Assembly (NCBI RefSeq): GCF_004209755.1
Contig: NZ_CP035913.1
Coordinates: forward strand, 1,674,001 to 1,738,000
Source of the DNA: Pseudoduganella lutea
GTDB lineage: Bacteria; Pseudomonadota; Gammaproteobacteria; Burkholderiales; Burkholderiaceae_D
Length of the DNA stretch: 64,000 nucleotides
Reading direction: 5' to 3'
The first letter of the stretch is position 1. Every line of letters starts with the position of its first letter. Made by a program: the position numbers and the translations under genes. Shown here piece after piece: positions 8,813-32,180 of the stretch. A model generated the notes under the pieces. It did no database searches. It saw only the letters and a program-made list of their open reading frames with translations, and was not told the origin of the DNA.

Positions 8813-9796
8813 TCAACGTCGAAACGCTTCCAGCAGCAGCGCCGGGTCGCCGGCGGCGAGGCGCTTTGAATCCGACAGCGTTTGCCGGAACTGTTTTGCA
8901 CCCGGCAAGCCCTGCATCAGGCCCAGCATGTGGCGCGTGATCGTGTTCAGCTTCAGCCCGCGGCCGCCCTCTTTCGCCAGCTGGGCGGCAATGTACGGCA
9001 TCATCGCGCGCAGTACCTCCTCGCGGCTCTTCACCGGCGCATAGTCACCGTAATACTTGCTGTCGAACGTGGCCATCAAATAAGGGTTGTGATACGCCTC
9101 GCGGCCCAGCATCACGCCATCCACGTGCTGCAGGTGCACGTCGATCTCCGCTTCTGTCTTGATACCGCCATTGATCAGGATCTCGAACTGCGGGAAATCG
9201 CGCTTCAGGCGGTACGCATATTCATACTTCAGCGGCGGGATTTCGCGGTTTTCCTTCGGCGACAGGCCCTTCAGGATCGCATTGCGGGCATGCACGATGA
9301 ATGTAGTGCAGCCCGCATCGGACACCGTGCCGACGAAGTCGCGCACAAAATCATAGCTTTCAGTCTCGTTGATGCCGATGCGGTGCTTGACGGTCACGTC
9401 GATCGACACCGCATCGCGCATCGCCTTCACGCAGTCGCGCACCAGCGCCGGCTCGTCCATCAGGCAGGCGCCGAACGCCCCCTTCTGCACGCGCTCGGAC
9501 GGGCAGCCGCAATTGAGGTTGATCTCGTCATATCCCCACTTTTCACCCAGCTTCGCCGACGTTGCGAGATCCTTGGGATCGCTGCCGCCCAGTTGCAGGG
9601 CCACCGGGTGTTCTTCTTCATTAAAGCGCAGGTGGCGCTCCACGTCGCCATAGACGAGCGCGCCCGTAGTTACCATTTCCGTGTACAGCCATGTGTGCTT
9701 CGTGATGTGGCGGTGGAAGACGCGGCAGTGGCGGTCGGTCCAGTCCATCATGGGAGCGACAGATATGCGCCGACCTTTGTAAGTTTCTGATTTCAT
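8813..9796 (-). CDS. dusA: tRNA-dihydrouridine synthase A
   Basis: A 327-residue FMN enzyme that reduces uridines 20/20a in the tRNA D-loop. Typical blocks are seen: SVAPMMDWTDRHCR at the start, LQLGGSDP, NLNCGCPSERVQKGAFGACL with the catalytic Cys region, VKHRIGI, FIVHARNA and LINGGI. Length is usual. The start at ATG 9796 follows the family, although the sequence right upstream belongs to an inserted element. The 5' end of dusA is a known integration site for a family of tyrosine integrases. The island to the right, with partial copies of this 5' end at 23404-23478 and near 14260, fits that. The first codons may therefore have been supplied by an incoming element. Confidence 0.95.
   Translation of the reverse strand: MKSETYKGRRISVAPMMDWTDRHCRVFHRHITKHTWLYTEMVTTGALVYGDVERHLRFNEEEHPVALQLGGSDPKDLATSAKLGEKWGYDEINLNCGCPSERVQKGAFGACLMDEPALVRDCVKAMRDAVSIDVTVKHRIGINETESYDFVRDFVGTVSDAGCTTFIVHARNAILKGLSPKENREIPPLKYEYAYRLKRDFPQFEILINGGIKTEAEIDVHLQHVDGVMLGREAYHNPYLMATFDSKYYGDYAPVKSREEVLRAMMPYIAAQLAKEGGRGLKLNTITRHMLGLMQGLPGAKQFRQTLSDSKRLAAGDPALLLEAFRR
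9736..9796 (-). other. Attachment-site segment in the dusA 5' end (junction 1)
   Basis: This 61-base coding segment (first 20 codons of dusA) is repeated with about four in five bases identical at 23418-23478. A shorter trace is at about 14250-14280. Integrase remnants follow each of the three. It is read as the element-chromosome junction on the dusA side. Confidence 0.7.
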
Positions 9797-9900
9797 TGCT
9801 TTTTTGGGATTTTGAGCGGGTTTTTCATGCAGCCATTTTTGATGAATTAGCCCGTCTTTTTCGTATTTCCGGGCTCATTTCAGCAAACTTACATCACCAT

Positions 9901-10120
9901 AGCGTCTATACAGAAGCGCGGCACAAACATGGTTTGCCCAAGTAGGACGTACCGGCCACAAGTCGGCAAGCACGTCGTTTTCTATAAAAAGCATGGCTTT
10001 CGGAGTGGGCCCGGAGGGTCGGGTCGGAGATGGACGCCAGCGCATATCGGGGTAGTCGAAGCCTCAATTCTATTACATTCGGCATTCTCATCGGCAGTTG
10101 CACGACGGAAATAAGAGCTG
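9901..10120 (+). pseudogene. Integrase remnant 1 (N-terminal part only)
   Basis: In shifting frames the plus strand reads ASIQKRGT, WFAQVGRTGHKSAST, SFSIKSMAFEWARRVE, EMDAS and RSLNSITFGIL. This matches the N-terminal arm-binding domain of the integrase relics at 14340 and 23587 block for block. The start ATG has become ATA (near 9900), frameshifts separate the blocks, and the catalytic domain is missing. It sits about 105 bases from the dusA start, the place where a dusA-targeted integrase gene normally lies. Confidence 0.7.
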
Positions 10121-10171
10121 GCCAGCGATCTGGCTGAGCGCGACCAACAAGCCGGCGATCATGCTGCCGCG

Positions 10172-10354
10172 ATGGAGCCGCCAACTGGTGTCCGCGCCAC
10201 GGATGTTGCGCAAGTGCTGAACGACCTGGACCGCTCAAGGCGATGGGGAACGAAGGAGTCTGAAGATGCCTGCCGCCGGGCTGAGGAAGTGAGCAGGGGT
10301 CTGTTGGAGGGCCTGAGCGCATTCCAGCTGGACAGCGCGGCTTGGCCCAGCTAG
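10172..10354 (+). pseudogene. Degenerate copy of the 19543-19746 island gene
   Basis: The block TGVRATDVAQVLNDLD matches TGVRAIDVAQVLNDLE of the gene at 19543, and SRGLLEGLSAFQL matches IRGLLNGLSASQL. The middle is scrambled and the last third is lost through a frameshift. Its partner helix-turn-helix gene follows at 10392. Function unknown. Confidence 0.55.
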
Positions 10355-10391
10355 AGGAAAGAATCGGAGGAAGTTCGATGAACACACAATT

Positions 10392-10601
10392 ATGCTACTG
10401 GCCATCTACAACAAGCCGCGGCTGAGCCTGGACGAAACGTGCCAGGCGCTGGGATCAGCACGGCAACGGGGGCACGCATCGGTCGCGGGAAAGTTCCCGG
10501 TGGCCATGTCTGGTAGCCCACTTACTGCCGATGTGCGTGACGTCGCTGATGCGCTGGATCGGCTCCGTGAACAGGCGAAGCACGGGGCGGCCGAGCAATA
10601 G
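10392..10601 (+). pseudogene. Degenerate copy of the small helix-turn-helix gene
   Basis: It reads LLAIYNKPRLSLDETCQALG and later KFPVAMSGSPLTADVRDVADALDRLRE, closely matching the intact gene at 19743-19985. One T is lost just after the original ATG (10378), shifting the start. A local frameshift destroys the recognition helix (GISTATGYTH in the intact copy). An internal ATG at 10392 leaves an open frame of 69 codons, but the DNA-binding part is broken. Confidence 0.6.
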
Positions 10602-10809
10602 TGCACGCGGCCGCGCTCGATGCTGGCTTTGCCATGTATGTCACGAAGTCCTCACGTCCATTAAGGCGAGTAAGTAGGCAATTGCGGCCACGTCTACATA
10701 CCACGTGGCCTCTTGGAACGCTCGCAGTAGATGGGGACCGGGGCGGGCACCCGGTACCGCACACAGGGAATGCCCAGATGCGGATTTTCCAGTTACCCGC
10801 CAGTGCACG

Positions 10810-13800
10810 TCAGCGCGCCGGAATCTTGAGCACGCCCTTGGGCGAGCTCAAGTAGCGCCCAGTACCGGGACCGCTTTCCTGCACCACTGCATACTCTTCC
10901 GATCCCGGGATCGGTGAGTAACTGAAGTACGCGTTCGGCACCAAGCCTGCTACGAGAACGCTTGCTTTGGGATCCAAGGGATCAAAGCGCACCTTGTCCG
11001 CAGGCCCGAATTTCGTAGCGAATGCGACGGACTGACTGGCATCCAGTGCCACAGCATCGACACTGAAGTCACTACTGGGCAGGTGCTGGGACGCTGCCAC
11101 TTCCGGCACGCCGGTTCCATGATCGTTCGGCTCGACTCGCAGCACGTTCATGAAGTTCTGGTATTGCCAGCCCGGTGCACCTTCGATCTCGATGCGCCAG
11201 TTGCCGATGTCGCTGCGATCCTCGCTCGCGTCCGTCTGGTCACGAGGCGGGTAGTTCGCCCATGTGCCGTCGGGCTGGCGCACGTTGAATCGGCAGTCGT
11301 ACCTATCTTCGGTCGTTTTCTCGACGTCCCTGACCTGGGGCTCGCAGGCATGGCCTTCGGCCGCCGTGCCGCCCACCACGCGGATAGTGGCCTGTCGCGG
11401 CAACACCGGGTCCACCGTGACCATGCCATCGCCGTTGCGGATACGCAGCGGCGCATTACGGCTGCCGTTGACCGAGTAGATGCCAGCTGTGCCGGTGTGA
11501 ATCTGGCTGCCGAACGTTTCGGGCCGGGTCACGCTGTGCAGCAGCGAGGTGGCAGGCAGTTTCTTGGGCGAATTGATACGGTCATGTACAACGATGATGG
11601 GTTTCTTGCCGCCGTCCTGCCGCAAATAGATAATGTTGCGGCGGAAGCCGTCGACATGGTGCAATTTCTCAGCTACGCCTGATTTGTAGGCTTTGCTTGC
11701 ATTGCCTGACGTGTAAGCGTATGACGGGGTGTCTTCGAACACAGTGACACCATCGAGCGCGTTCGTGCCGCCCGGCTTGACCTCATCGAGCGTGGGGTAG
11801 GCGTAGCCTTTGTACCACTGGCCGCCGTCGTTGCTGAAGGTGGTGCCGCTGCGCTCGAATTTCTCAAGCGGGTCGTACACCACGATGGTGTTGTGGGCGA
11901 TGGTCCTGCGATTGTAGTTTTCCCAGTGCGAGCTGTAGTAAGCATCATACCAACCGGAATCGACGAGCAGAGGAGCCTTATAGAACAGCGAGAAACTGTT
12001 CTGGTCCAGGTGCTGGTGGTTTTCGCTTGCGAAGGACGTCGACTTGAAGTCGAGCAGGACGGCTTCGTCGTAAAGCCAGGTATCGCGCATGAACACATTA
12101 CCCGCGACTGCGAAATGCGCCGCCAGCGGCAGGTTGTTTGGCTGGGCGGGTGCGCGAGTACCCGGGAAGTACAAGCGTTCCCAGAGGGCCTGCGCGTTCA
12201 GCCTGCTGCGGCCGCGTTGGACGTAATCCTTATGGAAGGCGGTAGACACCCCATCCCCGGCGTTAGCGGCCCCGAGCGCCATGTAACCGACTGTGCTGTC
12301 CGTTACGCGCGTATCGAAGTAATCGCCGGTCGGGGGGAACGTTCCATCCCAAGCGCTTGCGTCTTCGGAATAGCCTTTTCGCAGGGCGTAGATGTACGGT
12401 TTGATAAGCTTGGGGGCAAACTTCGTGTGCTCGTTGATGAGCGCATCCGTTCCCGTTGGCTGCACCGTGTTCCACATGCGCACCCGCTGCAGCAATTCGC
12501 CGCCGCTTCCATAAGCGAAGAGGGAATGGTGGCCGCCATCCTGCGAAATGTACTCACGGGTCGGCAGGAAGCCGTAGGCGCGATCGCCAACCTTGAATGC
12601 CTGGTGGCGATGCAGCGTGTCGATCATCGGCATGACCATGGCTTTCGTTTCCCCATCGGCGATGGCGAGCAGGCCGAGGGCAGTGGCATGGTTGGCACTG
12701 CCGTTATGGCCGGAGATATAGAACCTGCTTATGTCGGCAGTAGAGGCGCACTCGATGGTTGCGGTGCTGGGCTTGAGCCCAATCTGGTTGCCGCACGCCA
12801 TGCCTATCAGGTCCATATGGTCAGAATTAGTCCCGGTGATATCTTTGCGGACAGTATCGATGATCGTCCGGCGGATGTCCGACTTGTCCGCGTCTGGCAG
12901 GTAGGCATACAGCCAGTCGTAGATCAAGGCCAGGGCGCCGACCCGCGCACCCATTGACCATTCCCCATTCGATTCGACCGGAACCGTGCCAATGAGCTTC
13001 ACGTAGTGCTGCGCCGCCTGGCCAAATTTCGATTCGCCCGTCAACTGGTAAGCCAGGCCCATGTCGGCTCCTGCTTGCGTTACTACGGCCCGATTTCCGG
13101 TCGCCACATTGCATACACTGCTCGAATTGCTGGTGGGGACCACCAGGCTGCAAGCCTGGATTATTGCAGCCGTTTTGGTCGCGTAGTCAATGAAGCGGTA
13201 ATGGGCTGCCTGCAAGGTCCAGTCGAGGTTCGCGCCGCTCCACTTCTCTCGGTTCTCCCCGTCCAGTACCTTGATGTCGACGACTTCTTCGTTCACACGG
13301 CTAACGAAATAGAATTTCTGTGGTTTAGCGGGGTCTGGCGCCCAACCCGTTCCCGGCAGCGAGCGCGACGTGCCGCCATTGCTTTGCAACGTTCCGCCGG
13401 TAACCGTGATTGACAGGAATTTATCTGGGCCGTTGTAGTGCATTTTGATCGATGCCGTTTCGCCCCTTCTCAGATCTACTCGTTCGCCGACAACCCATGT
13501 CGTCGGACCGGTCTTAAACCCCACCTGGTAGCCGATCGTCCCAGCAGTATCCCAACCGTCGATATGGCGGATGAACAAGTGGCTCGATGAATCTTCCCAG
13601 TTGCCGAAAACGATGGCATCCTGCAAGTCACGGGTCTTGTCCCTTGCACCCGGCTTCAGTGTCACAACCACGGTGCCATAGTTAGCCGGCAGCAGGTTCG
13701 TTGGAAATTCGGCCTTGAGCGCGGCGAAATCGCTAGCAGTCGCGTAGAGGCGTGGATGATCTGTTCTGATATCGAGCGCGCTAGCGGGGCCGACGGAGCC

Positions 13801-13854
13801 GATGGTGGCAACAGCCGCCATCGTAAGCATGGGAATAAGACGCATGCGGGGCAT
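10810..13854 (-). CDS. Secreted heparinase II/III-like protein 1
   Basis: A 1,014-residue protein with a signal peptide (MPRMRLIPMLTMAAVATIG...ASA). Directly after it comes the family's entry motif HPRLYATASDF. Residues of about 55-215 form an inserted beta-rich region (GNWEDSSSHLFIRHIDGW and following strands). An alpha/alpha-toroid region then includes GEWSMGARVGALALIYDWLY. The heparinase II/III beta-domain holds H613-Q-H615-L-D-Q-N and later RRTIAHNTIVVYD. These His-rich blocks are the usual catalytic and metal regions of polysaccharide lyases that act on uronic-acid polymers. The substrate is not known. A good SD (AAAGGA) precedes ATG 13854. It is one of three paralogues in this island, surrounded by integrase debris. 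Confidence 0.8.
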   Translation of the reverse strand: MPRMRLIPMLTMAAVATIGSVGPASALDIRTDHPRLYATASDFAALKAEFPTNLLPANYGTVVVTLKPGARDKTRDLQDAIVFGNWEDSSSHLFIRHIDGWDTAGTIGYQVGFKTGPTTWVVGERVDLRRGETASIKMHYNGPDKFLSITVTGGTLQSNGGTSRSLPGTGWAPDPAKPQKFYFVSRVNEEVVDIKVLDGENREKWSGANLDWTLQAAHYRFIDYATKTAAIIQACSLVVPTSNSSSVCNVATGNRAVVTQAGADMGLAYQLTGESKFGQAAQHYVKLIGTVPVESNGEWSMGARVGALALIYDWLYAYLPDADKSDIRRTIIDTVRKDITGTNSDHMDLIGMACGNQIGLKPSTATIECASTADISRFYISGHNGSANHATALGLLAIADGETKAMVMPMIDTLHRHQAFKVGDRAYGFLPTREYISQDGGHHSLFAYGSGGELLQRVRMWNTVQPTGTDALINEHTKFAPKLIKPYIYALRKGYSEDASAWDGTFPPTGDYFDTRVTDSTVGYMALGAANAGDGVSTAFHKDYVQRGRSRLNAQALWERLYFPGTRAPAQPNNLPLAAHFAVAGNVFMRDTWLYDEAVLLDFKSTSFASENHQHLDQNSFSLFYKAPLLVDSGWYDAYYSSHWENYNRRTIAHNTIVVYDPLEKFERSGTTFSNDGGQWYKGYAYPTLDEVKPGGTNALDGVTVFEDTPSYAYTSGNASKAYKSGVAEKLHHVDGFRRNIIYLRQDGGKKPIIVVHDRINSPKKLPATSLLHSVTRPETFGSQIHTGTAGIYSVNGSRNAPLRIRNGDGMVTVDPVLPRQATIRVVGGTAAEGHACEPQVRDVEKTTEDRYDCRFNVRQPDGTWANYPPRDQTDASEDRSDIGNWRIEIEGAPGWQYQNFMNVLRVEPNDHGTGVPEVAASQHLPSSDFSVDAVALDASQSVAFATKFGPADKVRFDPLDPKASVLVAGLVPNAYFSYSPIPGSEEYAVVQESGPGTGRYLSSPKGVLKIPAR

Positions 13855-14339
13855 GATGATCCTTTGAAGGGAGAAAACGCAAATATTATCAAATAATCAT
13901 GCACTTAACCCAACAAAATGCCACTATTAAATAGGCCGTCGACGGTTTGTCGCTATTTATGGAGTATTTGCGGGATAGCTCTTGACGTCAGTGCAGACGT
14001 TAGAACTATTGTGTCAGTAATGGCTGCTAGGCATTTTTTACCCACTTCGGTGACGCCAGCACTCCACCTATCTGATCAGGTAGCGAAAAAATTGCAAACA
14101 GGCATGTCGAAGCGTATTTAATAGGCGCTCGTTACACCCTCGAGTGTCCGTTTTGAGGGCGAGGCGAACATTCCAAATCGGGAACCGCCAACAACGCTTT
14201 AGCCACACTGCATCAAATTTACATCAGCAGAGCTACACCACCAGCATCCTTAAGGCTTACTTCTTCTGTTTGGTCCAGTTGCAAGTACGCTTTTTGGTAT
14301 TTTGCGCGACCACTAAAGAGAAATTGCGAAGAATTGCGG
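13855..14339. other. Non-coding gap with a decayed element junction (junction 2)
   Basis: No gene is visible. From 14205 the sequence GCATCAAATTTACATCAG, then CACCAG and TAAGGCTTACTTC, reappears almost unchanged at 23348-23410 next to the dusA fragment. The dusA-like part itself is here reduced to about GGTCCAGT (14271-14278). The upstream flank of integrase remnant 2 follows (AAATTGCGAAGAATTGCGG, compare 23569-23586). It is read as a second, partly deleted attachment junction. Confidence 0.6.
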
Positions 14340-15155
14340 ATGCCTTCGATTAGGGAACGCGAAGGAAGTTGGGTCGCTGAAGTTTGGCGCATTGGCCACA
14401 AATCAATCAGCAAGCCCTCCCTACAAAGTCATTTGCATCCGAATGGGCCCGCAAGGTCGAGGGCGATATGGTTGCTAGTCAGTATCAGGACAATCAAAGC
14501 CCGAATTCTTTACTTCCGGCAGCATCATCGACAGTTGCACTGCGGAAATATTCACAATTCGGCTATTTGGGAAGAACCAGGCTGCGGTCCTGAAAACACT
14601 GCGATCTTCCTTGGGCAACATGCCGCTGTCTGGCTTGACGTCGGATCGGCTGACCGAACACGTCAACGCCCGGCAGGCTACCGGCACGGTGGCGTGACGG
14701 TGGGGATCGATCTGACCTATATCGGCGGTATCCTCAAAACGGCTGCCGCCATCTGGCGAATGCCGGTAGCCCAGACCGCGGTGACGGATGCGCGCGCGCG
14801 CCTGGCCCACCTGGGCGTGTCGACAAAGTCGAAAGAGCGCGCTCGCCGCCCGACCGCCGAAAAGCTGGGCCAGCTGTGTGAACACTTCCGAGCGAAAGGT
14901 ACCTGCCAGCGGGTGCCGATGCCCGACATCATCCGATTTGTGGTGGCCACGGCAATGCGCCTGGGTGAGATCATCAATCTCAAATGGGCGGACCTCAATG
15001 AGGCCGACCGCGCGATAGTCATCAGAGATCGGAAGCATCCTACGGAAAAGGTCGGCAATGACCAAGAGGTGCCACTGCTCGGCGAGGCATTCGACATCGT
15101 GAAGCGGCAGCCCACGACCTGCGATCGCATATCCCCGGTCATGCAAGCCTGGTGA
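14340..15155 (+). pseudogene. Integrase remnant 2 (nearly full length, frameshifted)
   Basis: It starts MPSIREREGSWVAEV and continues in other frames with KSFASEWARKVEGDM, VLKTLRSSLGNMPLSGLT and LTEHVNARQATG, then returns to the first frame for HLGVSTKSKERARRPTAEKL and VATAMRLGEIINLKWADLN. The last block holds the first catalytic Arg of tyrosine recombinases. At least three frameshifts break the gene. It stops before the HxxR and Tyr boxes, so it is dead. It belongs to the same family as the relics at 9901 and 23587. Confidence 0.8.
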
Positions 15156-15181
15156 GCAGCCAACGCTCAATTTGGGGCCTA

Positions 15182-15953
15182 GCTGGCTGAATATATCGAA
15201 CGCGGCTTTTTGGAGATAGATCCCGACGTGCTACCCATGCGCGTCTCCATCGAATCTGCCGACCGCGCTCTACGGCTATGGAATGCACTGCTCAGGGCGT
15301 GCGAGGCACGCTAATTCCGTGTCGAAATCAGCAGCCGACACGTCAAGGTAGGCGACGGGGTTGATGAGGTCGCTCTGCGGCTGTCCGAGAATTTTTCTCC
15401 AATCAAGCAGCCTGCCAAGCGCGGCACGAGCGCCATCTTGGTGCGACGGCCGCCCGGCAGCCTACGGATCTTCGTTACCGAGACCAAGATCGAGTACGGC
15501 GCCGATCGACGCTCGAACAGCAGCTGAATGATGTGATGGTGCGAATCCATCGCGCCACAGTGCGCCGGGCTGCTGCATATGCGGAACAGCAGCAACGCGA
15601 TGAGGCCGCCGCCAAAATCAGGCGCAGGGCCGCGCCGCTGCGACGGAAGCGGCGCGGCTGCGAGGCGAGGAGCGACAACGCTTGGAAGCCGAACTGGCCG
15701 CGGAGGCCGAGCGTGAGCGGATGCTGGTGGCAGAAGCAAGCGCCTGGCGTGACGCTGCGGCGACCGTGCATATGCGGCGTACATTGAGGCTGTAGCCGCT
15801 GTCAGTGGCAGCGAGCCCACGCCGAATCTCAAGGACTGGCTGACCTGGGTCGATTCAATAGCCGGGCACCTTGACCCTACCAGTGAGCGGCTAGGACAAC
15901 AGTCGAAGCCGCCCGAAAATTCCAATGCCAACGCCAAGTTTCAGGCCGCCTTA
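15182..15953 (+). pseudogene. Broken island gene with coiled-coil region, unknown family
   Basis: Pieces in successive frames: EYIERGFLEIDPDVLPMRVS, a stop codon at about 15312, FRVEISSRHVKVGDGVDEV, then LEQQLNDVMVRIHRATVRRA, then a Glu/Arg/Ala-rich coiled coil (RLEAELAAEAERERMLVAEA), and finally LKDWLTWVDSIAGHLDP. One nonsense codon and at least two frameshifts are needed to join them. I believe such proteins occur in integrative elements, but I cannot name the family. Its end abuts the stop codon of the heparinase-like gene on the other strand. Confidence 0.55.
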
Positions 15954-18900
15954 CTACGGATTAATACGTACTACTCCCCCATGAATTGAACTAAGGTAGG
16001 AACCAGTCGTACTAGGCTTGAGCTCTACCCAACCATCCTGCCCCGGACTCGTCAGCATGAACTTTGCGTTCTTGGCTAAACCGAACACCAAGGTCCGCCC
16101 TGTCGAATTGGAATCAGGCTTCCAGCGAATATTCGTCGCTGGGGCAGCACTACTGCTGAAAACAATGGTCTGACCATCTTTCATTTTTACCGCAACGCCA
16201 CTGATATCTTGCGAAAGTACAACGGCAGCATCACTTATATCGGCGGCACCATCCGGCTTTTGATCGACATCAGCCACGTGTAGAACGTTTAGGAAATGCT
16301 GCGTCGAACCTGCTGCTGGGGGAGTTTTTGGCGAGATTTGCATACGCCATGCGCCCGTGTCAGTGGTGCTTTGAGCTGTCATTCCCACCCCGTCACTTGG
16401 TTCCAGTATCGCAACATTGCGCCAAGACAATGTTCCATCAGCCTCTTTTGCACGCACGAGGAATCGGCAGTCCGGATTATCCACACTGGCATCTTTATTA
16501 TAGAAAGAATCATGTGCTTGCTTACAGCTTGCTCCATTGGTGCCACCAGAAATAATTACGCTAGCATCAATAGGCAGTAAGGTTTGTACTGTTACCATTC
16601 CTTTTTCATTTCGAACTGTGATTGGATCCACTTTATTAATGAATGGCAGTCTATAACGGCCTGGCTCGCCGGGAATTGCAATAGGAGTTACCGTGCTCGA
16701 AGGCTCAGTTGCAGTATGGAGTAGCGACGTGATTTCCAGATTATTTTTAGTGGGCCGGACACTATCAAATACGAGTATTTTTGGCGGTCCGGCATTATCA
16801 TCACGACGTAAGTAGACAATGCTACGAAGGAACCCGGCAGCGCTGTCAATTTTATTCGGCAGATAGGCCTTGCTAGCATTTCCCAAAACGTAAGAAAAAG
16901 TACCACCCTCCTCGAAAGCAGTCACGCCGTCGAGCCAGTTAGAGCCAGCAGGCTTGTTCGGTTCTGCAGCTTTAATCTGATCTAAACGAGGATTGAATGT
17001 ACGAGCACCTAGCCACTGTCCGCCATCATTTAATAAATACTTCGTATCGTTCAACTTGAATACTTCGCCCTTATCGAACATAGTGACCGTATTATGCGCA
17101 ATAGAACGAATGTAGTAATTGTGCCAATGATTACTTCCATACTTATCATATTGACCTGAATCGAGCAAAAGAGGGGCTTTATAATAAAGCGAGTAACTAT
17201 TTTGGTCCATATGGTGGTGATTGATACTAATGAACGATGTCGACTTAAACTCAAGCAACGTTGTATCGCTAGGTGTCCATCTATCCCGCATTAACACATT
17301 GCCGCTTACAGAAAAGTGGCGCGACAAAGGCAGTGACGTTACAGGATTGGAGGTAGTAGGCTTTTTATACATCAAGCGTTCCATTATCATTCCTGATTCA
17401 AGGCCTTCAGCCACACGGTACGGATGGATATCGTTCCAGTAGAACTTGGCCGCGTGTGCGTCTCCGTTCGTATTTGCTCCTATAGCTGCCATCGCAAGAG
17501 CGCCTGTCGCCGATGCAGTGAATGGACCACTGTCTCCACGGGCCGGGAAAGAGCCATCGGCTCGAACCGCGTAAATGTAGGGATATACCATATGCGGTGC
17601 AGCTACAGTTTCCACCACCTTTGCCGGCGCTACAGGCGGCTGTAGGGCGCGACGCCAAACCGCCAATCGTTCCGCGTTCTCTCCCCCGCCTGAGCCATAG
17701 CCGAAAAGCGCGTAATTTCCACCATCAATGGAAAAATAATCGCGCGCCGGCACATATCCTTGAGCAAAGTGATCATAGATTGTATTGAGCAGTGGTTTCA
17801 CATCTGGATGTTCTTCAACAATCGCTAGCAAGCCCAGTGCTGATCCGAAATTACCACTGGCAGAATGTCCACCAAGATAAGTGTCAGAAATAGTCTTGGC
17901 TCCAGGAGTACCCGTCCAAGTCATTTCAGGATCAGTATCACACTTGAATGCCGTATTAGAAAGCGGTTGATTGCCACACGCGTAATTGACTAGATCCGAT
18001 TGGGAAGCAGTGTCATAACGAATGGTTTCCTTAATTTTAGCAGCTAGTTGATCGCGTTTGGGCGAGCCGAGTTCGTCATAAAGCCAGTCATAATAAATTC
18101 CTAATGCCCCGACGCGTCCGCTCATACTCCATTCTGGGCTATCGGATTCATCATCAACTACATCTCCTACTGGCGTATTTAAGATCAGTTCAATGTGCGT
18201 CTTCGCGGCATCCAAAAATTTCTGTTTCTTGGTAAGCCGGTATGCCATTGACAACCATTCGGCTGGTTCTGTAATCGCATTTCGGCCACCACGCCTTGTG
18301 TTACATTCTGTATCATTCGAGTCATCAACTTGCTGAGGGCAAGCTGCCAATCTACCGACCGCTCGCTCCGCTCGCTCCACATAGCTCCGCCACGCGCTGG
18401 CAAGCGGAAGATCAAGTGTTTGGCCTGGGAACGTCAGCAATTCGGTCTTAGACCCGCCCACAGCTGCAAGATCGGTTACCCAAATATCAGAGAGCACGGT
18501 ACCCGCGAGTGGGCGAAAGAAAAATGGTTGATCTTTCGGTGCCCAGTTACCTATCGAACGGGAAGGTAGGATATTACTACCTACTTTAAAGGTAGCTGTT
18601 TGTGTGCTCGTGTTATACCCGACCACAAAATCGGATCGAACGCCAATAGGAATATCGAATACTTGCTCTAAATTATTCCCCGTTGCACCTTTAAAAACAA
18701 CATACAGTCTTGTAGTATTCCCCCCGCCACCGTTACTATAATGCACGACGTAAATCGAGTTTGGACGGTCTCTATCGCCGAAAATACTGATTGGGGGACC
18801 GCTTACGCTTTTCCATGCTACAGGGGTAATTGAAAATCGAAGTTCCCCTGCTACTTTTGGCAGATCAGCTATACCAGTTGCAGCTTCTGACTTCATCCGC

Positions 18901-19025
18901 TGAAAATCAAGTTTTGAACCGTATAAGCGTGGATGACCAGGATTCACTTCGGAGGGCAATCCTGCCCAAGCACTATTTGGACACACGGCAGCAAATGCTA
19001 CGGATATGGCTGTCGAGACATCCAT
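15954..19025 (-). CDS. Secreted heparinase II/III-like protein 2
   Basis: About 1,023 residues. The order is the same as in protein 1: HPRLYGSKLDF after the secretion signal, an inserted beta-rich region, a toroid region with PEWSMSGRVGALGIYYDWLY, then H603-H-H-M-D-Q-N and RSIAHNTVTMFD. The first in-frame ATG behind a ribosome binding site region is 19025 (MDVSTAISVAFAAVCPNSAWA). However, the strong AAGGAG is positioned for an ATG at 19036 in another frame, which stops after 12 codons. A longer in-frame start at 19085 is also possible. The gene is markedly AT-richer than its two paralogues and the rest of the window, so it was probably acquired separately. Confidence 0.78.
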   Translation of the reverse strand: MDVSTAISVAFAAVCPNSAWAGLPSEVNPGHPRLYGSKLDFQRMKSEAATGIADLPKVAGELRFSITPVAWKSVSGPPISIFGDRDRPNSIYVVHYSNGGGGNTTRLYVVFKGATGNNLEQVFDIPIGVRSDFVVGYNTSTQTATFKVGSNILPSRSIGNWAPKDQPFFFRPLAGTVLSDIWVTDLAAVGGSKTELLTFPGQTLDLPLASAWRSYVERAERAVGRLAACPQQVDDSNDTECNTRRGGRNAITEPAEWLSMAYRLTKKQKFLDAAKTHIELILNTPVGDVVDDESDSPEWSMSGRVGALGIYYDWLYDELGSPKRDQLAAKIKETIRYDTASQSDLVNYACGNQPLSNTAFKCDTDPEMTWTGTPGAKTISDTYLGGHSASGNFGSALGLLAIVEEHPDVKPLLNTIYDHFAQGYVPARDYFSIDGGNYALFGYGSGGGENAERLAVWRRALQPPVAPAKVVETVAAPHMVYPYIYAVRADGSFPARGDSGPFTASATGALAMAAIGANTNGDAHAAKFYWNDIHPYRVAEGLESGMIMERLMYKKPTTSNPVTSLPLSRHFSVSGNVLMRDRWTPSDTTLLEFKSTSFISINHHHMDQNSYSLYYKAPLLLDSGQYDKYGSNHWHNYYIRSIAHNTVTMFDKGEVFKLNDTKYLLNDGGQWLGARTFNPRLDQIKAAEPNKPAGSNWLDGVTAFEEGGTFSYVLGNASKAYLPNKIDSAAGFLRSIVYLRRDDNAGPPKILVFDSVRPTKNNLEITSLLHTATEPSSTVTPIAIPGEPGRYRLPFINKVDPITVRNEKGMVTVQTLLPIDASVIISGGTNGASCKQAHDSFYNKDASVDNPDCRFLVRAKEADGTLSWRNVAILEPSDGVGMTAQSTTDTGAWRMQISPKTPPAAGSTQHFLNVLHVADVDQKPDGAADISDAAVVLSQDISGVAVKMKDGQTIVFSSSAAPATNIRWKPDSNSTGRTLVFGLAKNAKFMLTSPGQDGWVELKPSTTGSYLSSIHGGVVRINP

Positions 19026-19302
19026 TGCTTGTTCATTGGGACTCCTTTGGTAGAAATGAAAAAATGATAACAAGTATCCCAGCACACTTTCTCACCAATT
19101 GTCACAATAATCCTTGTCAAACGAAAAATTTTTCAATTGTTGTATTAGTGCTCTACATCGTCAAACTATGGTAAAGAATGGAGTTTGCACTCGTCCATTT
19201 ACGCGCAAATGCAAGGCGCAGTCGCTTCTCTCTCAAGGGAGCATGGAATGGCTACTGCCGAAAATACGTGTCTTTGATAAATACTGTACAAAGCACAGTA
19301 TC

Positions 19303-19539
19303 TCAGCGTGGCAGATGGGTTCCCCTCTTTCCAGCTAGCGCCGCTTGGCGGCACACGCGGTACTGCCTGGCGACCTGGACCAGCTTCGTGGTGGTAGCGC
19401 CGAAGCTGGCGTCATTCAGCAGAGTCAGCTCCGGGCACGCTGCGATCACCAGGGGATCCGGGCCGACCGGTGAGGGCTTCGTTGATGTTGCGCAGCTGGT
19501 CAGGGTCATGCACGCAATCAGCGCCTGGAATCGACGCAG
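19303..19539 (-). pseudogene. Phage Rz1-like (outer spanin) lipoprotein remnant
   Basis: The minus strand reads RRFQALIACMTLTSCATSTK, a lipoprotein signal with lipobox LTSC. It continues with ACPELTLLNDASFGATTTKL and YRVCRQAALAGK. This pattern (short lipoprotein, Pro-rich start, ACPxL, SFG, YxxCRxAAL) is common in the outer spanins that phages use to disrupt the outer membrane. The expected ATG before RRFQ is a CTG (19537-19539), so the gene is probably dead. An open frame extends to 19608, but that part overlaps the next gene. This is the clearest sign that part of the island is prophage debris. Confidence 0.5.
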
Positions 19540-19542
19540 GAA

Positions 19543-19746
19543 TTGCAGACCGGTGTCCGAGCCATTGATGTAGCGCAAGTGCTGAACGACCTGGAGCGCG
19601 CGGGCCACGAAGATGCAGCAGATGTGCGCGAGGTCGCGGGCCGGGCCGCGGCGGTGATTAGAGGTTTGCTAAACGGGCTGAGTGCATCACAGTTGAGTGA
19701 AGTGGCCGGGCCGACTGGCGGCCGAGAACTGGAGGAAGTACGATGA
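19543..19746 (+). CDS. Small island protein of unknown function, 67 residues
   Basis: Contains TGVRAIDVAQVLNDLERAGH and RAAAVIRGLLNGLSASQL, mostly helical and charged. It overlaps the next gene by ATGA (19743-19746), so the two are translationally coupled. A decayed copy of the same pair lies at 10172-10601, which shows that it was a fixed module of the element family. The true start may lie upstream, since the frame has no clear ribosome binding site. Confidence 0.5.
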   Translation: MQTGVRAIDVAQVLNDLERAGHEDAADVREVAGRAAAVIRGLLNGLSASQLSEVAGPTGGRELEEVR

Positions 19747-19985
19747 ACACCCAATTTATGCTGCTAGCCATCTACAACAAGCCGCGGCTGAGCCTGGACG
19801 AAACGTGCCAGGCGCTCGGGATCAGCACCGCGACAGGATACACGCATCGATCGCTAGGCAAGTTCCCTGTGGCCATGTCGGGTAACCCACTCACTGCGGA
19901 TGTTAGGGACGTTGCTGAGGCACTGGACCAGTTGCGCGAACGAGCAAACATAGAGGGGCTGAAAGCCCGCACCACACACCGATAA
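19743..19985 (+). CDS. Phage-type small helix-turn-helix protein
   Basis: An 80-residue protein: MNTQFMLLAIYNKPRLSLDE, then TCQALGISTATGYTHRSLGKFP as a helix-turn-helix, then LTADVRDVAEALDQLRERA. The layout (Leu-rich start, HTH near residues 17-40, DVAEALD helix) is that of small phage or element regulators such as excisionase- and AlpA-like proteins, but no specific family is certain. GGAGG precedes the ATG. It lies directly upstream of heparinase-like gene 3 in the same direction (gap 120-210 bases), so it could control or merely neighbour it. Confidence 0.6.
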   Translation: MNTQFMLLAIYNKPRLSLDETCQALGISTATGYTHRSLGKFPVAMSGNPLTADVRDVAEALDQLRERANIEGLKARTTHR

Positions 19986-20195
19986 ACCAAAAATTAGGCC
20001 ACGGCATTGGTTATTAATTAATAGCAATGCTACGTCGTTCAGTAGACTATGGCGGCCGAGGTTGGATAACTATCTCATCACAAATAGACGAAAAAAGGAA
20101 TATTTGTGACGGTATTTCCACAACCACTACAGACTGTTGTATTTTTTATATCGCCGTCGGGTAGTATGTCATCTCCCTCACTCTCGAGACTAACT

Positions 20196-23165
20196 ATGCG
20201 AACCCGCCCAATCTTACGTACCATTACGTTGACACTTGCGTCCGCATTTACGATCAATTCTTACGCTGCCCTTCCGTTCGAGCCAAAAACCACCCATCCC
20301 TATCTATATGCAAGTGCTGACGACGTAGCTACATTGCGTGCGAAGGTTGGGCCATTGACAATGCCGCCAGTGGGCAAGATCGAAATTAAGGTCAAGCCGG
20401 CAGTGCAGTCGGTTCTTGACCTCAACGGTTTGCCCATGAAGATCGATCCTGACAGTTCGATCCTCATGGGCAGCTTCCCGGATGATATTAATCATTTCTT
20501 CATCCGCAACGTTACTCCGCAAGGGGCTACCCAAGCCAAATTCCATGTTCGCTTCCGAGAAATGAGCGAGCCTGAGGCCCGACCTTATCCGGACCTCGTA
20601 CTTCCATTGGATCGTCCATCCACCATCACTGTAACTTGGGATACGGCAGCCAAGACTATCATTGTGGCGGCGGAAGGAAATAACCCCATTACGTTGAACA
20701 ATGCAAATTGGCAACCACGTGCTGATCATTTGCACTTTGTTGGCAATAAAAACCAGCACGTAGTATCGCTGAAAATGTCTGATAAAGCAGGAAACGTTCT
20801 CTGGGATGGCACCGAACTAGATTGGGACCTTGCCGCCGCGTACTATGGTTTCACGCGGTTTAGCGCCCCTCAGACAGTAGCAACCGTTACGGCGTGCAAA
20901 GTACCAATGCCAACGAACAAAAGTGACCCGTGTAACGTCGCAGAGGCGGGCCGTGGCTGGATATTGTCGCCAGCTAAGAGGCTTGCACTTGCTTATAATC
21001 TGACGAAGGAAGATCGATATTGGGAAGCCGCTAAGTATTATGCTAATCACATCATGTTGAATACGAACCTCGGCGCTGGTGGCGAATGGTCAATGAGTGC
21101 GCGAGTCGCGGCACTCGGTGTGTTGTACGATGCATTTTACGACAAATTTAGCGCTGACGATAAGAAGAAAATCCAAGATACGATTATACAAACGATTAAA
21201 ACGGATATCGCTGCGGCTGACCTGATCAGTATGATTTGCGGTAGCGGCTCTCTGTCCGGCACTACCCTTGCATGCGCCGGCACGCCTGACATCTCGCGTT
21301 TCTACATCTCAGGTCACCATGCCAGCGCGATGACAGGTGCTGCTATTGGACTCTTGGCTATCGCCAATGAACGTTCTGAAGTGGATCCAATGCTGGACAC
21401 GATCTACGATCATCTTGTCAATGGTCTGCTGCCGGCGCGTGAATATATATCGGGTGACGGGGGGCACCAGACCATGTTCGCATATAACTCCACCGTGGGC
21501 GAAGTGGCTGAACGGCTGGTCTTGTGGCGCCGTGCATTGAATACGAATGGAGCGCCTATCCTGCAGACGAGTTTCATGTCCAAAGTGATTAATCCATATA
21601 TCGATGGGCTCCGAGCCGGCGGCGGCTTCCCAGCGACGGGGGATAATTTCGGCCTCAGTGTTGCGGAAGAGGGTGTTGGTTACATGGCCTCAGTAGCAGC
21701 GAGTGAAGGGAACGGCCATGCGACTACGTTCTATGAAGATCAGGTCAAACGGTACCGTAGCAGGATTTCTCCGAACGCTCTGTGGGAAGCCTTGTATTTC
21801 CCCGAACCAAAAGAGCCTCGCGCGGACGTGAATGACCGAAAACTTTCGGCACGCTACCAGATTGCCGGTAATGTTTTCATGCGTGACACCTGGGATTATG
21901 AAAACGCAACGCTACTAGACTTCAAGTCCAGCACCTTCAGTAGCGAGAATCACCAGCACCTCGACCAGAATAGCTTCTCGCTGTTTTATCGAAAGCCGCT
22001 GCTACTCGATTCTGGCGCCTATGATGAGTACAATACGCCTCATTGGTACAACTATTACCGCCGCACTATAGCCCACAACAGCATCGTTCTTTACAAACCC
22101 ACTGAGACATACAAGCACAATAACTCCGCCACGGAGTATTCCAATGACGGCGGCCAATGGTACAAGGGCGAAATGTATCCGACGTTGGATGAGATTAAGC
22201 CAGGCGCGAAGAATGCGTTACAAGGCATTGCGCGCTACGAAGACCACGATAGCTATGCATACGTAAGTGCCAATGCCGCGCAGGCGTATCAGGCAGGGAA
22301 GCTTGACCCGATTGACGGATTCCGCCGTCGTATCGTGTACTTGCGTTGGCCAGGGAAAAAGCCAGTGGTGGTCGTACATGATAGGGTGCATGCGTTGACA
22401 CCGCAGCCGGCGGTATCACTACTGCATACGGTAGCGAAGCCAGAGACGGCGGCGGCCGTCTCGGTAGGATACGACAATGCCGATGGTCGGTACACCTTGC
22501 AAGGCAATACCAATCTGCCGATTGTAGTGCGCAATCACCCTTCAAATTTGACGATTGAACCATTGCTGCCAAGGAGACCGCATATCAAATTTGTTGGCGG
22601 TGCGCCGAACGGAGCAACCACGTGTGAAGACCAAGTCGTCGATAAGGCTGAAATTCCGGACCTGACAGATTGCCGTTTCACCGTGCGGAGCATGGTAAAC
22701 GGAACGCTGCAATGGACGAATTTTGCACCGAGGAAATCGTGGACGACCGGCAAGTCCGATTTTGGCGCGTGGAGAATTGAGATTTCTCAAGTGCCGGAAG
22801 GCCAGACGTCTGACCACTACCAGTTCTTCATGAACGTTCTGCGCGTTGGGGACGAAGGAGGTCCGGTAGCTGCAACTTCCACGCTGCTGACGAGCCCTGA
22901 TCTCAGTGCGAATGCGGTGACAATCGATGCAGCCACTTCAGTCGTCTTCGCTACAGACTTTTCTACCACCAACAAGCTCCGGTGGAAGCCTGTCAACACT
23001 CTTGAAAATGTCGTAGTAACGGGGCTAGTACCATCCGCAATATATCAGCGCGTGTACGACTCAACCGCAAAAGAATGGATCTTGACGAAGGTTGCTACGG
23101 CAGGCAGCAATACACTTACCAGCTCTAGCGAAGGCGTCATTTACACATCGTTCGCAATCCCCTGA
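20196..23165 (+). CDS. Secreted heparinase II/III-like protein 3
   Basis: 989 residues from ATG 20196 (MRTRPILRTITLTLASAFTI..., a clear signal peptide). A GTG at 20106 with AAGGA upstream would add 30 residues in front and is an alternative start. Then come HPYLYASADDV, an inserted beta-rich region of about 170 residues (TITVTWDTAAKTIIV within), GEWSMSARVAALGVLYDAFY, the heparinase domain with H586-Q-H-L-D-Q-N, and RRTIAHNSIVLY. It aligns block for block with proteins 1 and 2 and is closer to 1. It is transcribed opposite to them. No transporter or regulator for its product is seen nearby apart from the HTH gene at 19743. Confidence 0.8.
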   Translation: MRTRPILRTITLTLASAFTINSYAALPFEPKTTHPYLYASADDVATLRAKVGPLTMPPVGKIEIKVKPAVQSVLDLNGLPMKIDPDSSILMGSFPDDINHFFIRNVTPQGATQAKFHVRFREMSEPEARPYPDLVLPLDRPSTITVTWDTAAKTIIVAAEGNNPITLNNANWQPRADHLHFVGNKNQHVVSLKMSDKAGNVLWDGTELDWDLAAAYYGFTRFSAPQTVATVTACKVPMPTNKSDPCNVAEAGRGWILSPAKRLALAYNLTKEDRYWEAAKYYANHIMLNTNLGAGGEWSMSARVAALGVLYDAFYDKFSADDKKKIQDTIIQTIKTDIAAADLISMICGSGSLSGTTLACAGTPDISRFYISGHHASAMTGAAIGLLAIANERSEVDPMLDTIYDHLVNGLLPAREYISGDGGHQTMFAYNSTVGEVAERLVLWRRALNTNGAPILQTSFMSKVINPYIDGLRAGGGFPATGDNFGLSVAEEGVGYMASVAASEGNGHATTFYEDQVKRYRSRISPNALWEALYFPEPKEPRADVNDRKLSARYQIAGNVFMRDTWDYENATLLDFKSSTFSSENHQHLDQNSFSLFYRKPLLLDSGAYDEYNTPHWYNYYRRTIAHNSIVLYKPTETYKHNNSATEYSNDGGQWYKGEMYPTLDEIKPGAKNALQGIARYEDHDSYAYVSANAAQAYQAGKLDPIDGFRRRIVYLRWPGKKPVVVVHDRVHALTPQPAVSLLHTVAKPETAAAVSVGYDNADGRYTLQGNTNLPIVVRNHPSNLTIEPLLPRRPHIKFVGGAPNGATTCEDQVVDKAEIPDLTDCRFTVRSMVNGTLQWTNFAPRKSWTTGKSDFGAWRIEISQVPEGQTSDHYQFFMNVLRVGDEGGPVAATSTLLTSPDLSANAVTIDAATSVVFATDFSTTNKLRWKPVNTLENVVVTGLVPSAIYQRVYDSTAKEWILTKVATAGSNTLTSSSEGVIYTSFAIP

Positions 23166-23403
23166 CGCGGAGCTGGCTGCGAGTGTAGCGGCCGGCCTGA
23201 CTACTCTATCCTTGTCAAGCGGTAGCGCAGTAATTGGCGGCAAAGTCGTATTGCTCAGGCAGCTTTAGCTTGGTCGCCAACAACTCAAGACTCTGCACAA
23301 CGGATCACATGGCTCACTTGGTGGGCCATTTATTTTTCAACTAGTTTCGCATCACTGCATCAAATTTACATCAGTCGAGATGCGTCACCAGTATTTATAA
23401 GGC
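23166..23403. other. Non-coding end of the island before junction 3
   Basis: No gene is seen. From about 23348 the sequence repeats the stretch at 14208-14265 (CATCAAATTTACATCAG and TAAGGCTTACTTC), which flanks the attachment site in both places. Confidence 0.5.
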
Positions 23404-23478
23404 TTACTTCGTTTCTTCGGTCCAGTCCATCACGGGGGCCACAGACAGACGCCTACCCTTATAAGTACTTGATTTCAT
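23404..23478 (-). other. Displaced dusA 5' fragment: attachment-site copy (junction 3)
   Basis: On the minus strand an ATG at 23478 opens MKSSTYKGRRLSVAP, then VMDWTEETK and a stop at 23404-23406. The first 20 residues match the start of DusA (MKSETYKGRRISVAP) with mostly conservative or silent base changes. This is the hallmark of an element that integrates in dusA and carries a replacement 5' end. The silent differences show that this copy came from another organism's dusA. Confidence 0.8.
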
Positions 23479-23586
23479 GAATTAATATGCCATTTTCCAG
23501 GCTTTAAAAGCTCCGCAAATTTTGCTGCATTTGCGGATTTGTATGTGTTTGCGCGTTCACTACAGAAAATTGCGGAGAATTGCGGG

Positions 23587-23800
23587 ATGGCTTCAATCAG
23601 GAAGCGCGAAGGAAGTTGGGTCGCTGAAATTCGGCGCACTGGCCACAGATCAATCAGCAAGTCCTTCCCCACAAAGTCACTTTCATCCGAGGGGCCCGCA
23701 AGGTCGAAGCCGAAATGGATGCTAGTCAGTATCGGGAAAATCGAAGCCTGAATTCTATTACATTCGGCACCCTCATCGACCGTTACCCGACAGAAATAGT
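23587..23800 (+). pseudogene. Integrase remnant 3 (N-terminal part only)
   Basis: It begins MASIRKREGSWVAEIRRTGH, shifts frame in the region after SFPTKSL, and continues EMDASQYRENRSLNSITFGT and LIDRY. After about 23800 the similarity to remnant 2 is lost. It starts 108 bases from the displaced dusA start codon, as remnant 1 does from the real one (about 105). The catalytic domain is absent. Confidence 0.75.
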
Positions 23801-23930
23801 AGCAATCGCCCATTGGGCAAGAACAGGCATGCACGCTGCAGCGCCTCTTTATGCACGCGGCTGTAGAGCAAGTCGTGAGAGCCCATTCCGCTGTTGCCGA
23901 CCAGATCCGTAAGGTCCTCGGCAATAGCAA

Positions 23931-23960: not shown

Positions 23961-24223
23961 CTATATGCTCCAAGGCTAACCTGCCAAGTGAGCTATCCGG
24001 ACGTGCGGGTGGCTCCCCATGTGAAGCGCCCGGCAGATCGAATTGTAGAGCTAGACTCTAATCCAATAGAAAATTTAGTCAAGGAAATTATTGGCTGTTG
24101 GAATTTTTCACAGCTGGGTTACGTTACTAGTTTCTTGCAATCGTTGCGCTACTCCAACGCAGCACACGGCGCCATTCCATCACAAGGTATTATTGTTGTT
24201 TATTATTTAATGATGGAGACTAC

Positions 24224-25021
24224 ATGCGCTCGATCCTTGCTGCCTTTTTCGTTACCCCGGCTTTGCTCTCGCACCAAGTCGCCCTAGCAGACACTTCCTT
24301 GTCAGTACCAGCATTTACTCTCGGCATCTCCTCATACTCTGGTCGCAATACCTATTTTGAACATTTGGACCAGCCATATCCCCCGGCTTCCTTTACGCTC
24401 TCGTCGACCAACCAAACGTCGACTGTAATCAGCTTGGATAGCTTCCAGGACGTGCTCCACGTAGCGAATGGCGGTAAAAATGGCTCGGGCGGAGGCCAAC
24501 CTTGGCTATCATGGGTGGAAACAACTTTGAACCTGCAGGCTAGCGATGGCTACCAGATTACAGGTGTTGCATTTTCCGCCTCAACGTACGCGATTCACAA
24601 ACGACCATTCGTGCCGAGCAATGCAACTAATGTTGAATCTGGCCCGCACATTAACCATGCTTGGTCCAATGCTGCCATTTCAGCGCCTGGAACCTCGGGT
24701 CCGCTACCCGAGCTGTACCATGTCGAAGGCTTCACGACGCCAGTGGCCGTGGGTTGGAACTTGTCGAATACAACCGGTTTGAGCAACATTGACCTCATCA
24801 TGGAGGTTTGGGGTACTGTCCGCACTGGTGTCACCTTTTACAATATCGGTGGTGGTGAGCAGGGCGAGCAAAAGGCGTACGGCACTACGGAGTTGTACTA
24901 CGTAAATCCCATGCTGACGGTTTATACGGCGGCACTGCCTGTCCCTGAGCCCGCCACTTACGCCATGTTCGCCACCGGTGCGCTTGTGCTGCTGGGCACT
25001 CGCCGCCGTAAGTCGTCCTGA
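24224..25021 (+). CDS. PEP-CTERM sorting-domain protein, copy A
   Basis: A 265-residue exported protein with signal MRSILAAFFVTPALLSHQVALA. A body of about 215 residues rich in Ser, Thr, Gly and Asn follows, then the C-terminal sorting signal VPEPATYAMFATGALVLLG with an RRRK tail. Such signals are cut by an exosortase during export to the envelope or matrix. No exosortase gene is in this window. The body family is not recognised. GGAG precedes the start. It is the first copy of a tandem duplication with 25320-26126. Confidence 0.8.
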   Translation: MRSILAAFFVTPALLSHQVALADTSLSVPAFTLGISSYSGRNTYFEHLDQPYPPASFTLSSTNQTSTVISLDSFQDVLHVANGGKNGSGGGQPWLSWVETTLNLQASDGYQITGVAFSASTYAIHKRPFVPSNATNVESGPHINHAWSNAAISAPGTSGPLPELYHVEGFTTPVAVGWNLSNTTGLSNIDLIMEVWGTVRTGVTFYNIGGGEQGEQKAYGTTELYYVNPMLTVYTAALPVPEPATYAMFATGALVLLGTRRRKSS

Positions 25022-25027
25022 TACAAA

Positions 25028-25055
25028 AAGCCCGCTGACCTTTCGGCGCGGGCTT
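25028..25055 (+). terminator. Terminator hairpin between the two PEP-CTERM genes
   Basis: The same AAGCCCGC/GCGGGCTT stem as at 23931, six bases beyond the stop codon of copy A. In this position it probably ends copy A transcription. Confidence 0.65.
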
Positions 25056-25319
25056 CTGTGTGCTCCAAGGCTATCTGCCAGGTGAGTTTATCAGACGTGC
25101 GGGTGGCTCCCAACGGGAACCACCCAGCGAGTCTAATTGTAGAGTTGCATTCTTATTCCAACAGGAAATTTAGTTAAGGAAATTTATTGACTGTTAGAAT
25201 TCTGCACAGCTGGGTTACGTCACTAGTTTCTTGCTATCGTTGTACTACTCCAACGCAGCACACTGCGCCATTCCATCACAAGGTATTATTGTTGTTTATT
25301 ATTTAATGATGGAGACTAC

Positions 25320-26131: not shown

Positions 26132-26269
26132 CTATCCACGGGCTTGAAGAACCTTGCTGCCGCCAGTCGGTAGCGACAGAATCATGCTGCGCACGCCCTG
26201 GCGGATCAACGCGCGCAGGCCTTCGACGCTCTCGACTTGGTACCGGCGCAGTTCCAGCAGCTGCTTCAT
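26132..26269 (-). pseudogene. N-terminal stub of a DEAD/DEAH-type helicase
   Basis: The minus strand opens at ATG 26269 with MKQLLELRRYQVESVEGLRA, followed by LIRQGVRSMILSLPTGGSKV and a stop at 26132. RxYQxExVxxLRxxI and LPTGGxKT are the Q-motif region and Walker A of phage and restriction-type helicases; the usual Gly before Lys is Ser here. The gene is cut after 45 codons, where the PEP-CTERM region begins. Upstream, a frame ending at its start (GGCATGA) reads LVAKVRLAFSVESTAEILPA, probably the end of another phage gene. Confidence 0.6.
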
Positions 26270-26388
26270 GCCGCCCTCTGGACGGCCAGCGCCGGCAGGA
26301 TTTCAGCAGTGGACTCGACGCTAAACGCCAGCCGGACCTTCGCCACGAGATCGCCCCGGTAGCCACTCTTGACCCCGTCCCGGTGACA

Positions 26389-26947: not shown

Positions 26948-27157
26948 GTTCGACATTCGATGTGCGCAGCCGCCGGCTCCGGCGGTCACCAGTCTTGAAT
27001 CACCGGTCTGGCCGGCGCGCCGGGCATGTGCCGCGTAACCGGCTCGACCATCAGCTTTTACTGGCGTATTTACTGGCTTGTCTACCGCTTAACCACCGGG
27101 CGCCGATTGGCTGCGATTCATGGTAGCTTTCCCACTTTCATTGTGGAGGCTGCCTGC

Positions 27158-29658: not shown

Positions 29659-29766
29659 GTTTTTGCTTGCGTGCTTATCGGTTGCCTGGATCGATAGCTA
29701 CCGGCTGCTGGACACCAGTTTTTTCTGCGCGTGTTGCATCAGGCCGTGGCTGTTGGCCGCCGAACA

Positions 29767-29821
29767 CCGGTGTCTGACACCATTTTCGGATGAATCTCCC
29801 GGAAATGGTGTCAGACACCGG
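29767..29821. repeat. GGTGTCTGACACC-type long palindrome
   Basis: Arms 29767-29789 and 29799-29821 (23 bp, one mismatch) enclose the loop atgaatctc. Inside each arm CCGGTGTCTGACACC is itself self-complementary. It lies in the gap between the DUF4861 and CE12 genes. Confidence 0.85.
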
Positions 29822-32159: not shown

Positions 32160-32180
32160 GTCCAACCCAGGGCAGAAGCC

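Follow-up and report, generated by a model that had tools for sequence, protein, structure and literature searches.

The window analysed here is a 64,000-nt stretch of Pseudoduganella lutea DNA, corresponding to positions 1674001-1738000 of the source genome (G000; 7.5 Mb, one contig). From left to right it carries dusA, junction 1, int1, HTH1, hepI, junction 2, int2, x, hepII and a lysis-region remnant, followed by HTH2, hepIII, junction 3, int3, a PEP-CTERM pair and native flank. In the list below, L309 is a prophage remnant in a second genome of the genus (G067), G095 is another genus genome, and P0006 is an intact integrase from an Oxalobacteraceae genome.

8813-9796, minus strand: dusA, intact (Pfam Dus, E 1e-85), with a 5' end that is element-type against the native-type starts of relatives
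9735-9796, minus strand: junction 1, comprising the att core and a dusA start derived from the element; putative left end of unit 1
9899-10134, plus strand: int1, N-terminal remains of an integrase (residues 1 to about 78, spread over several frames); matches best among one Oxalobacteraceae subfamily
10115-10351, plus strand: gene remnant before HTH1; 51 nt are 88% identical to 19549-19599, and 10121-10230 is 73% identical to L309
10387-10601, plus strand: HTH1, damaged small excisionase-like HTH gene with repeat matches within the window; best non-self match HTH2
10810-13854, minus strand: hepI, intact heparinase II/III-like gene, 1014 aa (Pfam Hepar_II_III_C, E 9.6e-12)
14198-14286, no strand assigned: junction 2, with its dusA start deleted; putative right end of unit 1 and left end of unit 2
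14340-15149, plus strand: int2, integrase relic with internal frameshifts, reaching from residue 1 to about 271 and lacking the C-terminus (Pfam Phage_integrase, E 4.4e-7)
15161-15959, plus strand: x, broken gene with 6 stops; its counterpart in L309 adjoins a phage gene of unknown function
15954-19085, minus strand: hepII, intact heparinase II/III-like gene, 1043 aa; 90% amino acid identity to G067:C2:3644331-3647411
19306-19668, minus strand: open frame with a lysis-region remnant, Rz1-like by eye and overlapping the Rz region of L309 (PHROG 2425, a family of unknown function, E 8.3e-7)
19486-19743, plus strand: gene remnant before HTH2; 19548-19697 is 79% identical to L309
19743-19985, plus strand: HTH2, small excisionase-like HTH gene, open frame (PHROG 1300 excisionase, E 9.9e-5; 106 relatives)
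20106-23165, plus strand: hepIII, intact heparinase II/III-like gene, 1019 aa (Pfam Hepar_II_III_C, E 1.3e-11)
23345-23478, no strand assigned to the whole: junction 3; 23345-23426 is the putative right end of unit 2, and 23404-23478 (minus strand) is a displaced element-type dusA start, putative left end of unit 3
23587-23833, plus strand: int3, N-terminal integrase relic, residues 1-83 in shifted frames; 88.6% and 81.6% identical to P0006 in two pieces
24224-25021, plus strand: PEP-CTERM gene copy 1 (Pfam PEP-CTERM, E 1.8e-5; NCBIfam TIGR02595); candidate unit 3 cargo by position
25320-26126, plus strand: PEP-CTERM gene copy 2 (TIGR02595); 300 nt around its 5' end are 88% identical to copy 1
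27026-28228, plus strand: histidine-kinase-like gene (HATPase_c), native flank outside the array; 74.6% DNA identity to G095

The start of dusA is present twice in the window. On the minus strand, the frame running from 23478 to 23404 reads MKSSTYKGRRLSVAPVMDWTEETK and then a stop (24 codons plus the stop), and 17 of its first 20 residues are identical to those of dusA, MKSETYKGRRISVAPMMDWT. The two align without gaps up to VMDWT, with the final four codons of the copy lying outside the common core, and at the nucleotide level the 62 nt of 23417-23478 match 9735-9796 with 81% identity. The recurrence of the first 20 codons of dusA at 23404-23478, reported in the initial annotation, is thereby confirmed. 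Mere chance has practically no probability as an explanation of this likeness: the dusA-start core pattern (up to three mismatches) has two matches in the window against 0.04 expected, 0 of 100 shuffles reach two, and an integrase relic is equally spaced from both dusA starts. The core-match statistics and the identity together rule it out. Junction 2 is recognised from its right-end sequence, 14198-14279, which shares 79% identity with 23345-23426 across 82 nt, and from a 19-mer that occurs exactly twice (0.02 occurrences expected with up to three mismatches permitted). In the alignment, junction 2 lacks some 100 nt, the dusA start among them, and keeps only the att edge, which agrees with the third, partly deleted junction described earlier.

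Two features of DAI islands and prophages, in which the element replaces the dusA start (Farrugia et al. 2015, PMC4482086), are present at this locus. Junctions 1 and 3 constitute imperfect att repeats inside the dusA 5' end, for which a 21-bp att logo of DAI elements has been published (PMC4482086), and the dusA 5' end has been replaced by element sequence, its start being unlike the native-type starts of relatives. A 246-nt probe from G095 found no native-type dusA start in the G000 genome, its matches being confined to junction 3, the body of dusA and a single 22-nt place, although a short or diverged remnant could be missed in such a search. The native start would be expected at the right end of unit 3, where it was not found, and the right junction of the last unit is missing. 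Because the 23404 start is element-type and no native-type start was found in the genome, the present dusA 5' end looks permanently element-derived. It may also be that dusA is now transcribed from an element promoter; a lacZ fusion has shown that another dusA element provides both promoter and N-terminus of dusA (PMC8409611). A sigma-70-type promoter was not found in 9700-10250, and the junction 3 DNA had no match among phage records.

The three integrase relics start at 9899, 14340 and 23587. An N-terminal relic had previously been noticed near each start copy, and we measure 102 nt for int1 and 108 nt for int3 from the respective dusA start codons. Full integrases of this kind have about 337-355 residues, so that the earlier description of int2 as nearly full-length and frameshifted is right about the frameshifts and slightly overstated in length. 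When 119 intact relatives were scored against each relic, int1 was matched by 92, with the match covering residues 1-73 or slightly more, int2 by 119 and int3 by 116. P0006 ranked 10th, 7th and 1st for int1, int2 and int3, and the integrase of G031, another genus genome, gave no match to int1 and ranked 46th and 108th for the other two. In a nucleotide tree of the relics and 21 intact copies, all three relics group with L168, L169, L170 and L088 (support 0.99). Within that group int2 and int3 are sisters (support 0.89), with 83% identity to each other against at most 76% to any intact copy compared; at least two layers of the array are therefore close kin. The placement of int1 within the group has a support of 0.11, and int1 is 63-68% identical to int2 and int3, no closer than to intact copies. 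Judged by sequence, the three relics belong to one integrase subfamily, as first proposed; ranking and tree agree on this and rule out three unrelated integrase families. Intact relatives adjoin dusA in other Oxalobacteraceae genomes, and this, with the single subfamily of the relics, is the basis of our DAI assignment. The catalytic RHRH tetrad and tyrosine are outside the reach of all three relics, and since none extends to the C-terminal catalytic part, none can be active. That all integrases have died thus stands; their death may also have fixed the island, as the first reading had it, although junctions 1 and 3 might still recombine if an integrase were supplied in trans.

A further repeat, which the initial annotation had missed, is the small-gene/HTH module found at 10184-10580 and again at 19549-19948. 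The PHROG excisionase match of HTH2 is weak, HTH1 has none, and neither gene has a Pfam match. A prtN/rdfN-like small gene is reported in 60 of 94 DAI islands (PMC4482086). At locus L171 the order is a small HTH gene, about 90 nt, an att with dusA-start-like sequence and the integrase, and in L173, L175 and L182 the HTH gene likewise lies just before the integrase. Given this order of HTH, att and integrase in L171, the HTH remnants of the window would mark places near the right ends of units. A search at 160 integrase loci gave 29 HTH matches, 4 of them directly before the integrase; because the 24 weaker matches (28-49%) sit after the integrase, on the opposite strand, we treat the HTH-before-integrase layout as a sublineage trait. 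Three left arms and two right arms are recognised in the window, and therefore at least three units or insertions.

Taken together, the locus is very probably what remains of a tandem array of three or more integrated elements that has since decayed, all of them from a single phage lineage whose tyrosine integrase targets dusA. Every element would have recombined its att with the dusA 5' end, or with an att copy already present, and each arrival would have given dusA a substitute start and shifted the earlier one outward, in an order of insertion that we infer. Junctions 1, 2 and 3 would be the left ends of units 1, 2 and 3, with junctions 2 and 3 also closing units 1 and 2 on the right. Deletions and frameshifts would have disabled the three integrases and erased most phage genes, the last right junction and the native start. 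The survivors would be the element-derived dusA start, the three intact heparinase II/III-like genes and perhaps the two PEP-CTERM genes. The initial annotation had suggested at least two elements accreting in tandem, each bringing a dusA 5' end. Tandem accretion holds, with the count raised to at least three by the three left arms, and the starts are indeed element-type; the displaced one is not the original chromosomal start. The 23404 sequence was also sought in native-start close relatives (L278-L283, 15-20 kb) and is absent from them, leaving that earlier account unrefuted.

Since int2 and int3 are sisters and the best match of HTH1 is HTH2, part of the array could stem from a duplication and not from separate arrivals. 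In its full form, this explanation has one element entering dusA, followed by tandem duplication, divergence and unequal loss, so that arrivals were fewer than junctions, and the likeness of junctions 2 and 3 would fit it as well. We nevertheless judge it improbable. The intact genes in corresponding places, hepI and hepIII, share only 45% identity and lie on opposite strands, int1 is equally far from its fellow relics as from intact copies, and two integrase types reached dusA separately in Massilia pinisoli JCM 31316 (L088, L320, L321). In that genome dusA lies at C26:14536-15489 with a displaced start at 27699-27764, and the order is dusA, an open integrase (42% to P0006), att at L320:9744, att at L320:12308 and a second open integrase (84% to P0006). 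Its succession of dusA, integrase, att, att and integrase resembles the window, and its outer integrase is in the relic subfamily. The two arrays differ in that both M. pinisoli integrases are open and of two types, whereas the three of the window are dead and of one subfamily. By analogy, the M. pinisoli tandem is what the decayed array of the window would have looked like before decay, and it supports repeated arrival. A heparinase-like gene was not found in the M. pinisoli dusA tandem by tblastn. The genes past its outer dusA integrase (L321 1583-19322) look by eye like a BREX-type defence.

Our survey of the genus places the locus among other states of the same site. All 74 genomes searched have dusA, and their starts were classified with five integrases as queries, all 74 genomes being kept. 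An intact integrase with an open frame lies beside dusA in seven (G004, G007, G031, G063, G069, G083, G089) and a relic in four (G000, G003, G061, G067). These 11 were called element-type from an integrase or relic within the upstream DNA (up to 2.5 kb; about 1.5 kb for L002-L030 and less than 2 kb for G071). Two further genomes, G065 and G071, have an element-type start and no integrase, and were classed only from the likeness of the start peptide to element-type starts. The start is native-looking in 61 of the 74, as called by eye, the native upstream motif being seen in 12 of the 74. Element-type dusA genes thus number 13 of 74, and 6 of the 13 have no intact integrase alongside. Displaced starts were detected only in G000, G031 and G089, in a search that is insensitive, since it detected none in 5 of the 7 genomes that have an intact integrase at dusA, and that also missed one M. 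pinisoli att copy. The dusA site of G027 is unoccupied. In G031 the site is occupied by an element of about 40 kb, whose integrase frame is open and at whose far end the displaced native-type start is found. Relics of the G031-type integrase are present in G003 and G067, so decay at the dusA site has happened more than once.

All three hep open frames carry the heparinase II/III C-terminal domain, and residues 561-786 of hepI match solved heparinase II chains. Their scores against NF045571 (heparin/heparan-sulfate lyase HepB) are 110, 133 and 100 bits for hepI, hepII and hepIII; as these lie below the cut-off of 600 bits, we call the genes heparinase II/III-like. The hepI-hepII and hepII-hepIII pairs are 38% and 36% identical. 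Together with its flanks (15136-19494), hepII is 84.9% identical over 4390 nt to L309, which has integrase, excisionase, tail fibre, endolysin and Rz genes. Because this match runs on through the lysis-region and x sequence, we conclude that hepII travelled with a phage and is, on the strength of the alignment, phage-borne. Each of hepI and hepIII has an HTH remnant on one side and the next att copy on the other, in a position left empty in L171. From position, hepI, hepIII and the PEP-CTERM genes may likewise have arrived as phage cargo.

A native origin of the three heparinase-like genes, or an arrival unconnected with phages, would make their positions in the array accidental; this is unlikely, if still worth serious consideration. 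The family is scattered, with hepI matched at E <= 0.001 in 36 of the 74 genomes and hepII or hepIII at E <= 1e-100 in 17 of 74 (G000 counted), and 15 of 16 heparinase-like gene contexts in the genus look chromosomal by eye, L309 being the only phage-like one. Close kin are also absent from mobile-element collections: hepII had a single match in phage records (23% identity) and none in plasmids, and neither hepII nor hepIII had kin in IMG/VR. Against an accidental placement stand the extent of the hepII-L309 match and the flanking of both hepI and hepIII by an HTH remnant and an att copy. In addition, G065 has a heparinase-like open frame (L276 15363-18395) 465 nt from a dusA whose start is element-type and which has no integrase match, while six native-start relatives have no heparinase-like gene over the 15-20 kb compared. 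That heparinase-like genes are a usual prophage cargo of the genus is unsupported, given the 15 of 16 chromosomal-looking contexts.

Tandem dusA islands and element-supplied dusA starts have already been published (PMC8409611, PMC4482086). Like the DAI islands (PMC4482086), the array has a tyrosine integrase beside dusA, att in the 5' end, an element-supplied start and variable cargo. It differs from the islands described there in its at least three tandem units, in the death of all integrases and in a native start that was not found. The cargo functions named in the consulted passages of that paper do not include heparinase II/III-like proteins. The Vibrio elements IEVpaBan1a and IEVpaBan1b also lie in tandem at dusA (PMC8409611), but they are SGI1-related integrative elements, whereas the present array is a decayed phage-like lineage in Oxalobacteraceae. 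Searches of the open-licence literature brought up neither a fully dead dusA tandem that has lost its native start nor heparinase-like cargo at such a site. What is new is the cargo, three intact heparinase II/III-like genes of about 1000 aa each, in a fossil array that is well preserved and legible.

These observations allow a broader, tentative and rather doubtful proposal, in which a dusA phage lineage carries large secreted polysaccharide lyases as lysogenic-conversion genes, in one slot between the excision gene and attR and in another next to the lysis genes, and phages that die at dusA leave a one-way scar. The scar would be one-way because, once the native start is gone, there is no integrase left to bring it back, and if the proposal is true, the host keeps the lyases together with a phage-made dusA start. 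Such scars may be common, given the proportion of element-type starts without an intact integrase. Related bacteria display the stages, from an unoccupied site through a single element, an open-integrase tandem and a fossil tandem to an element-type start without integrase. With this series one can examine the frequency at which phages make lasting changes to the start of a host gene, and which cargo survives. The heparinase-like genes also prompt the hypothesis that polysaccharide lyases travel on phages of these soil bacteria.

The right border of the array lies beyond 23800 and had been missed in the initial annotation. Within 23981-26126, a unit of about 1.1 kb, consisting of a PEP-CTERM gene and its upstream DNA, is present in tandem duplicate (300 nt at 88%). 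At 26135-26302 a helicase start was suspected by eye, and family profiles gave no match there. The kinase-like gene at 27026-28228 is ruled out as cargo, as it lies close to a native-type dusA start in G095, at about 0.9 kb, and in G075; native DNA has thus resumed at about 27.1 kb or before. In G031 and G003, similarity to the window sets in only at about 28245. These two genomes share a gene beside dusA (L043 about 1290-1780 and L045 about 2440-2940), which occupies the place of the kinase-like gene in the window, G095 and G075. From 28413 to 64000 the native right flank is syntenic with G031, G003 and G027, and by eye it resembles a polysaccharide (rhamnogalacturonan-type) utilisation locus. 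Several intergenic stretches of about 60-150 nt match the homologues of one another in G031 and G003 on both strands, resembling dispersed palindromic repeats:

29734-29838, 32148-32378, 34933-35021, 38678-38829, 44339-44440, 47497-47642 and 58492-58652, both strands: palindromic-repeat-like stretches, from comparison with G031 and G003
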